A stretch of 64,000 nt of DNA from a bacterium (GTDB taxonomy: Bacteria; Actinomycetota; Acidimicrobiia; Spongiisociales; Spongiisociaceae), in contig JAPPHZ010000029.1 in assembly GCA_028820935.1 (NCBI GenBank), forward strand, positions 277,437 through 341,436, given 5' to 3'. Positions 47,294 to 60,288 of the stretch are shown piece after piece. A program made the translations under genes and the position numbers. The notes below the pieces were generated by a model. That model was not told the DNA's origin. It saw nothing but the letters and a program-made list of their open reading frames with translations, and did not search any database. Numbering within the stretch: position 1 is the first letter of the stretch; each line of letters begins with the position of its first letter.

Positions 47294-47323
47294 TTGTGTT
47301 GTTCAGATCGGGAGAAGAACGCG

Positions 47324-47484
47324 AAAATCGCGGCACGCGTGCGCCGCCCGCCGGGCCCTCCCCCTCCGCCACCACCTTGGTCGAGACGCGTTCCGTTAGG
47401 CCCCTTGACGGGTGGTCTCGAACGATATGATCCCTCGGCGCGGCCTGGTCGACGTCGGAGCCGGACCGCTGGTAATTACGGTTA
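47324..47484 (-). ncRNA. Putative small RNA, copy B
   Basis: On the minus strand there is a promoter (47491-47519), about 160 nt with no convincing gene, and an intrinsic terminator: an 18-nt hairpin at 47330-47347 followed by four T at 47324-47327. The unit is alignable with copy A upstream of glyS, including GGTGGTGGCGG and GAGGGCCCGG near the 3' end and the promoter region. The transcript points at the 3' end of udgB, and no minus-strand gene lies downstream, so it is not a leader. Family unknown; a 6S-like RNA is possible but not shown. Confidence 0.45.
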
Positions 47485-47490
47485 TCCAAC

Positions 47491-47519
47491 AACATATAGC
47501 GGGGTTGTGACAGGTTCAA
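47491..47519 (-). promoter_or_regulatory. Promoter of putative small RNA B
   Basis: Read on the minus strand: -35 TTGAAC (47514-47519), 17-nt spacer containing TGTCACA, -10 TATGTT (47491-47496), matching the TAnnnT actinobacterial pattern. The same arrangement occurs before copy A. Confidence 0.5.
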
Positions 47520-47765
47520 CCCCCTTGTTCGGCTGGAAACAGCCATACCCGGAAGCCACGACCGGTCCGGATCGGGGCGATACGCCGTTATAGAGGTCAT
47601 AAACCCGACCAACCGACGACTTGAGACACCAGGCGCTCTCTGAGGATCGCCATTGTCGCCGGTATCTTGGCGGTGCGTCCGCCTTGGCCGGTAGAGACCG
47701 GATAGATAGCATCGGTTGACCCGTTACCATCCGCCCGCCGGATTCCGGAAGAAGGACCTGTCTCC

Positions 47766-54569: not shown

Positions 54570-54598
54570 TTGAAAGTGTCACACCTCCGATATACGTT
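54570..54598 (+). promoter_or_regulatory. Promoter of putative small RNA A
   Basis: -35 TTGAAA (54570-54575), 17-nt spacer with TGTCACA, -10 TACGTT (54593-54598). Both boxes and the TGTCACA are shared with the minus-strand promoter at 47491-47519. Confidence 0.5.
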
Positions 54599-54604
54599 GT
54601 CTAT

Positions 54605-54784
54605 CGCCAAGCACCAATACCGGCTGATACGTCTACCGATCGGAACGGCCGGCCGGAGGGAATACGAAGAGGCTCCAATGGGGCGAACCCGCCGTAACCC
54701 GGCCCCGACCCGGGTATGGCGCAACACGCCCCAAGCCAAGGACAGGTGGTGGCGGGGGAGGGCCCGGTGCGGAGCACCGCTTTT
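54605..54784 (+). ncRNA. Putative small RNA, copy A
   Basis: About 180 nt run from just after the promoter to an intrinsic terminator (CGGTGC-GGA-GCACCG, 54765-54779, then CTTTT to 54784). No gene with convincing start or codon pattern fits. It aligns with copy B at 47324-47484 over promoter, parts of the 5' half and the 3' block GGTGGTGGCGG...GAGGGCCCGG. It lies between uppS and glyS; because it has its own terminator about 270 nt before glyS it is more likely a separate RNA than a glyS leader. Family unknown. Confidence 0.45.
54765..54784 (+). terminator. Intrinsic terminator of putative small RNA A
   Basis: A 6-bp GC stem CGGTGC / GCACCG with a GGA loop is followed by C and four T. The minus-strand copy B ends with a comparable hairpin at 47330-47347 and TTTT. 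Confidence 0.55.
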
Positions 54785-54810
54785 CGCGAGTTTCGGAACT
54801 TGAGGCAGAG

Positions 54811-54942
54811 GACGCCATATATGACGCCCTGAGCCTCAAGTTCAGCGCCTGCACCATTCTCGATGCACAGGACGTCATCGGCGGTGCCCTGTTCCTCAGG
54901 CTCAGAGCGTCATGGGTGGTGCGGTGTTCCTCAGGTTCAGGG
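54811..54942. repeat. Degenerate 36-bp direct repeats upstream of glyS
   Basis: Three related 36-bp units lie at 54811-54846, 54871-54906 and 54907-54942, the last two adjacent and sharing GTTCCTCAGG(C/T)TCAG. Each contains (G/A)CGTCAT or GACGCCAT near its start and a CCTCA(A/G)G(C/T)TCAG block at its end; a partial fourth unit may follow to 54970. Between this block and glyS (54971-55055) I see only the glyS promoter/leader region without a clear signal. Confidence 0.55.
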
Positions 54943-55055
54943 CACCGTGTGTGGCGTTCTGATCCTGATGTACGTCCGATGGCCGGAGCTGCCGGGTATG
55001 GAGCCGGGGCCGGGTACCATCGTCCCGGTCCCGTACCCTCCCCGGTTGAGTCCTG

Positions 55056-60211: not shown

Positions 60212-60288
60212 TCCGGGGTAGCTCAATTCGGCAGAGCAGCGGACTGTTAATCCGTTGGTTGTGGGTTCAAGTCCCACCCCCGGAGCCA
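60212..60288 (+). tRNA. tRNA-Asn (anticodon GTT)
   Basis: A cloverleaf fits 60212-60288. The acceptor stem TCCGGGG pairs with CCCCGGA, followed by discriminator G and an encoded CCA. The D-loop is GCTCAATTCGGCAGAGC, the anticodon loop CTGTTAA with GTT at 60246-60248, and the T arm GTGGGTTCAAGTCCCAC. The gene lies just before a tyrosine integrase and so is the likely attachment site. Confidence 0.95.

Follow-up and report, generated by a model that had tools for sequence, protein, structure and literature searches.

A large, dispersed family of putative small RNA genes with a conserved G-run block in Acidimicrobiia

Bacterial small RNAs that exist in multiple copies normally come in handfuls. 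The LhrC, Qrr and csRNA families, for instance, consist of about 4-10 near-identical, stand-alone small RNA genes. Repetition in the spaces between genes is also familiar from the Correia, BOX, ERIC and REP elements, which are dispersed, structured intergenic repeats or MITEs. A further point of comparison is the pilE locus of Neisseria gonorrhoeae, where a promoter-driven small RNA is reported to be tied to a G-quadruplex that promotes recombination (PMC3547852).

The two units described here can be compared with each of these systems. Like LhrC, Qrr and csRNA they are stand-alone genes with common promoter signals and terminators, but the number of copies reaches about 60, and the copies are dispersed, undergo turnover and carry an invariant G-run block. 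With the Correia, BOX, ERIC and REP sequences they share copy numbers in the tens, a length of about 200 bp, a structured and strictly intergenic nature and empty sites in relatives; unlike those repeats, they show no inverted repeats at their edges, and what is conserved, in two families of bacteria, is a promoter-RNA-terminator unit with compensatory changes. The likeness to 6S RNA extends to a stand-alone gene and a length below 200 nt, whereas no model match, a different fold and a very different copy number set the two apart. In pilE, too, transcription from a promoter is linked to a G-run block, but pilE is a single locus with a known role in recombination, in contrast to the many copies and the conserved RNA fold seen in the present family (PMC3547852).

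Both units lie within the window, a stretch of 64,000 nucleotides, and their parts are collected in the table. Copy A as a complete unit spans 47316-47519 on the minus strand and copy B 54570-54784 on the plus strand, each with a 17-nt promoter spacer. The neighbouring genes belong by Pfam to the families of uracil-DNA glycosylase, SufB/D protein, undecaprenyl diphosphate synthase and class II tRNA synthetase, and the names udgB, sufD, uppS and glyS used here rest on those families and on position. Copy A sits in the udgB-sufD gap and is directed towards the 3' end of udgB. The gap that holds copy B is the one between uppS and glyS, with copy B upstream of glyS and on the same strand. Palindromic repeats resembling REP sequences (CTTGAGGCAGAGGACGCC-ATATATGACGCCCTGAGCCTCAAG and variants) occupy 54796-54961, between copy B and glyS; sister species conserve this stretch at 89-94%, and many B-type units are followed by repeats of a similar kind.

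Table. Coordinates of the predicted features of copies A and B within the window; G000 is the genome to which the window belongs
Feature	Position	Strand	Details
Copy A promoter	47491..47519	-	-35 TTGAAC 47519-47514, TGTCACA 47512-47506, -10 TATGTT 47496-47491; signals shared by almost every full-length copy
Copy A, putative A-type small RNA	47316..47484	-	predicted start near 47484, inferred from the -10 box; terminator tail TTTTCGCGTTCT at end
Copy A hairpin P2	47440..47469	-	loop palindrome GACGTC 47456-47451
Copy A stem P3	47381..47422	-	TTCGAGAC 47422-47415 with GTCTCGA 47387-47381
Copy A G-run block GGTGGTGGCGGAGGGGGAGGGCCC	47353..47376	-	
Copy A terminator	47316..47349	-	GC hairpin, TTTT 47327-47324, conserved tail CGCGTTCT
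Segment in G000, missing from the matching site in 7/7 sister genomes	47297..47677		edges approximate
Copy B promoter	54570..54598	+	-35 TTGAAA 54570-54575, TGTCACA 54577-54583, -10 TACGTT 54593-54598
Copy B, putative B-type small RNA with terminator	54602..54784	+	
Copy B 5' strand CGCCAAGCACC, can pair with G-run block (P1)	54605..54615	+	
Copy B hairpin P2	54620..54652	+	CCGGCTG 54620-54626 with CGGCCGG 54646-54652; palindrome CCGATCGG 54636-54643
Copy B stem P3 and inner stem	54679..54733	+	TGGGGCG 54679-54685 with CGCCCCA 54727-54733
Copy B G-run block GGTGGTGGCGGGGGAGGGCCC	54745..54765	+	
Copy B terminator	54765..54784	+	CGGTGC-GGA-GCACCG, then C and TTTT 54781-54784

A preliminary description had proposed that the window holds two paralogous small RNA genes with a common promoter, TGTCACA in its spacer, a G-rich block in the 3' part and a terminal hairpin followed by TTTT, and all of these elements are indeed present in both units, the hairpin being made of GC pairs. 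Its remark that copy B points at udgB with no minus-strand gene downstream holds for the minus-strand unit, which is copy A; only the label was wrong. The two copies are too divergent to find one another directly, and in a genome-wide blastn search neither appeared among the matches of the other. Their kinship is proven through the family, since each copy is found by a model built from types other than its own: a model from B-type copies recovers copy A (E 7e-5) and a model from the other types recovers copy B (E 2.6e-8). The proposed paralogy thus stands, while the number two does not, for the genome holds about 60 copies. Models R1 and R2, run over the window, detected copies A and B above noise and no other.

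All told, the 3.3-Mb genome G000 has about 60 such units scattered through its intergenic regions, A and B among them. A search with copy B gave about 30 full-length matches in this genome, and copy A retrieved a second set. Iterated profile searches of the fetched loci resulted in 68 non-redundant matches in three subtypes, with B the nearest subtype for 39, A for 18 and C for 11; a score of at least 60 bits and genes on both sides were found for 59 of the 68, and three further C-type copies were identified beyond them. Because the 68 include fragments, "about 60" is a working number. The B-type covariance model alone recognises 32 strong copies in G000. A partial tandem unit that directly follows a full one, and a cluster of three units on contig C28, were also seen (L033:3254-3323, L235).

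In every full unit, a promoter with the conserved TGTCACA in its spacer precedes a structured RNA core of about 130-165 nt, which is followed by an intrinsic terminator. From 5' to 3' the promoter is composed of GGTTGAA, TGTCACA and TAYRTTG, after which come the 5' strand CCAAGCACC, hairpin P2, either GAGGGAACA or GAGGGATCA, P3 with inner stems, GGTGGTGGYGGGGGAGGGCCC and the terminator. The elements kept across genera are the promoter, AAGCACC, P2, GGGAWCA, P3, the G block and the terminator. Units often terminate in TTTTCGCGTTCT, which has 60 exact sites in the genome as compared with 0 for the reversed control. The same sequence stands at the ends of some ordinary genes, as well as just upstream of some units, and is therefore a feature of terminators and not an element end. 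A peptide-coding role was considered and ruled out: loop length changes break the frame, and together with the compensatory changes these indels exclude a coding frame as the source of conservation, the explanation that the preliminary description had named as one that would refute its proposal.

The fold of the core was examined in several ways. RNAalifold applied to an alignment of mixed types gave four pairs only, so P2 and P3 were tested sequence by sequence. In a structure written by hand for the B type, 95.3% of cells were paired, as against 26-50% with slid partners and 94.4% in column shuffles, and changes on both sides of a pair amounted to 18 cells versus 3.4 in shuffles, with the support located in P2 and P3. 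P1 hardly varies, and covariation neither supports nor refutes it. Between subtypes the sequence of P2 is almost wholly different and yet its pairing is kept, as in CCGGCCG/CGGCCGG, CGGTCGAG/CTCGACCG, CCGGTTTCTT/AGGAAACCGG and GGATCG/CGATCC. Measured singly against shuffled sequences, copy B folds better (z -2.39), whereas copy A does not (z +1.21). Conserved structure with compensatory changes, the lack of a coding frame, an own promoter and an intrinsic terminator are what was looked for in a stand-alone RNA gene, and each was found. On these grounds the units probably form a functional family of RNA genes, and the preliminary proposal of small RNA genes is borne out at the level of covariation and conserved control signals.

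A palindrome of six bases (CGATCG, GACGTC, CAATTG or GGCGCC) sits in the P2 loop. Palindromic loops were counted in 132 of 139 distinct domains, compared with 66 in shuffles that keep base composition only. Such a loop could let two RNAs of the family dimerise by loop-loop contact, a suggestion that we put forward tentatively and regard as somewhat doubtful.

The G-run block follows the pattern GG-N-GG-N-GG-N-GGGGG-N-GGG, and almost every one of 157 copies keeps the run lengths 2-2-2-5-3. Its single linkers vary while the G runs are fixed, as expected of a G-quadruplex. When quadruplexes were allowed in ViennaRNA, the minimum-energy fold had one in this block for 60/60 of the copies sampled and for 2/60 shuffled ones, the shuffles keeping composition only; from these modelled folds we would give a quadruplex in the RNA itself an even chance. 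It is possible that the block pairs with CCAAGCACC instead, forming P1, and so makes up a two-state switch. P1 and the quadruplex are indistinguishable by covariation because the G strand is nearly invariant.

Copies also occur in relatives of G000. At least among the matches listed, comparable sets occur in eight of the nine sister species, and the ninth, G009, has a subtype of its own; copy counts in sister genomes are lower bounds, as short-read contigs end inside units (G003:C23, G004:C112, G008:C43). A model of the other subtypes has 39 matches in G010, 38 in G281, 19 in G271 and two in G011, and other genera of Acidimicrobiia have up to 40 copies per genome. Among 296 sampled Acidimicrobiia, 16 genomes from three genera contain a match at E 1e-5, while a phylum-wide sample of 396 genomes searched with strict filters yielded G000 as the sole match and none outside the class. 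The matches that bear names are Acidimicrobiia MAGs, many of which we take to be sponge-associated. The architecture is common to two families of the class, the second belonging to the same order. Two viral contigs match the G-block pattern, and neither has a match to the unit model. The neighbourhoods in the low-copy genome G011 were searched for a partner gene and have no shared neighbour. The second G011 copy (L309:5048-5223) is cut at its 3' end beside a gene that reads, by eye, like an IS110-like transposase.

The units show both constraint and turnover. The site of copy B is also filled in G003, G004, G006, G007 and G008 (the G004 contig stops before glyS), and TGTCACA, ATACGTT and CGCCAAGCACC, along with the G block, do not vary among the six orthologues, while the spacer just upstream has 53-76% identity in those sisters. 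Identity is 84-88% over the whole of copy B and 85-90% over the RNA core, as compared with 80-88% at third codon positions; since the core is close to that level and the motifs are invariant, constraint is concentrated in the motifs. The segment bearing copy A is absent from all seven sister genomes in which the udgB-sufD gap was found, and the simplest reading is that copy A was gained in the G000 lineage. At a different locus G000, G001 and G008 have the unit, G002 retains a remnant of it, and G003, G005 and G007 lack it, from which it follows that copies are also lost and that no single copy is essential.

In the strongest rival explanation the units are non-autonomous, MITE-like mobile repeats without function for the host, moved by a transposase or other enzyme in trans and merely carrying their signals along. 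Empty sites in relatives agree with it, as do an insertion bias away from divergent gaps and bursts confined to single lineages: median identity among the C-type copies of G000 is 92%, and the recent copies of G009 share a near-identical unit with short edges amid unrelated flanks. Such bursts point to repeated copying. At the empty sites the edges are ragged because intergenic sequence has diverged, and no clear target duplication stands out there. Against the rival, the copy A segment has no terminal inverted repeats at its edges, and the ends of the alignment are not complementary. Compensatory changes also occur inside one genome, the orthologues of copy B keep all signals invariant, and the architecture is maintained in another family of the order, as it would not be in a decaying repeat. 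On balance a purely mobile repeat seems unlikely. A recombination or R-loop element acting at the DNA level, with a secondary role for the RNA, is improbable. Under such a scheme transcription would open the G-rich non-template strand into a G-quadruplex and so promote recombination, and the predicted promoter would indeed drive transcription through the invariant block, homologous copies are dispersed and pilE offers an analogous system (PMC3547852), but the covarying P2 and P3, the palindromic loop and the conserved terminator would be left unexplained.

The positions of the units bear on two further alternatives. Overlap with predicted coding sequence is 20 nt at most for every unit (gene calls from our own script). 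Of the units, 30 lie in tandem gaps, 22 in convergent and 7 in divergent ones; among the remaining gaps of those loci divergent ones are common, and their rarity here fits tolerance away from promoters. A terminator at the end of each unit and the placement of copy B upstream of the co-oriented glyS would suit a leader, riboswitch, attenuator or insulator acting in cis on the next gene. That said, the tandem units are split evenly, 15 with and 15 against the neighbouring genes, copy A points at the 3' end of udgB, and neighbours vary from copy to copy. An even split and few divergent gaps exclude a general leader role, in agreement with the preliminary description, and we consider any cis-acting function very improbable. 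Least credible is the 6S-like decoy of RNA polymerase that had been offered as one option. Similar length, a stand-alone gene and a possible long-range closing helix, P1, speak for it, but Rfam gives no 6S-type match even at E 5, and a multi-branched fold with a G-run block in about 60 copies per genome is at odds with it.

We favour, with moderate confidence, the view that the units make up a large family with birth-and-death evolution, whose members are stand-alone small RNA genes acting in trans and spread by copying. The preliminary interpretation as a whole is partly supported. The TGTCACA-containing promoter would be used to transcribe an RNA of about 160-180 nt, which would fold into hairpins P2 and P3 plus the 3' G-run block, the latter alternating between P1, formed with CCAAGCACC, and a G-quadruplex. 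Two such RNAs might then dimerise through their palindromic P2 loops, and a protein or RNA partner would recognise the G-run block together with AGGGAWCA. High gene dosage would be useful, or at least tolerated; a trans-acting role that depends on dosage is, judged from sequence, an evenly balanced proposal. New copies would arise by duplication at the DNA level, with promoter and terminator carried along. A bolder version is a bacterial counterpart of SINEs, a quadruplex-forming, self-dimerising RNA gene that multiplies as a promoter-to-terminator module by its own copying route while its copies still function; we hold this to be rather unlikely.

The family is apparently undescribed. Rfam 15, applied to the window at gathering thresholds, reports only a tRNA at 60212, and lenient searches of the units up to E 5 return only sub-threshold chance matches to microRNAs; a search of the open-access literature likewise found no description of the family. 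The Rfam search that the preliminary description had recommended leaves the family without a name, as that description did. Multicopy small RNAs are a known kind, and it is the scale, dispersal and architecture that appear new. What makes the family unusual is that a conserved, structured RNA gene seems to disperse much as mobile repeats do. Two questions arise from it: by what means bacteria copy an entire transcription unit, and what advantage there is for an organism in having one quadruplex-capable RNA in so many copies. In more practical terms, it explains one class of intergenic repeats that interrupt the assembly of these genomes.

Some units have themselves received additional DNA. At L041:3090-4806 an A-type unit is split by an insert of about 1.4 kb that resembles a methyltransferase gene and is flanked on both sides by CCCCCACCAGG. 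Three units from different genomes (L098:6423-6755, L127:7320-7653 and L260) have one and the same hairpin of about 130 nt (AGGAGGGTACTGAAAAA...TTTTTCAGCACCCTCCT) inserted close to where transcription is predicted to start.
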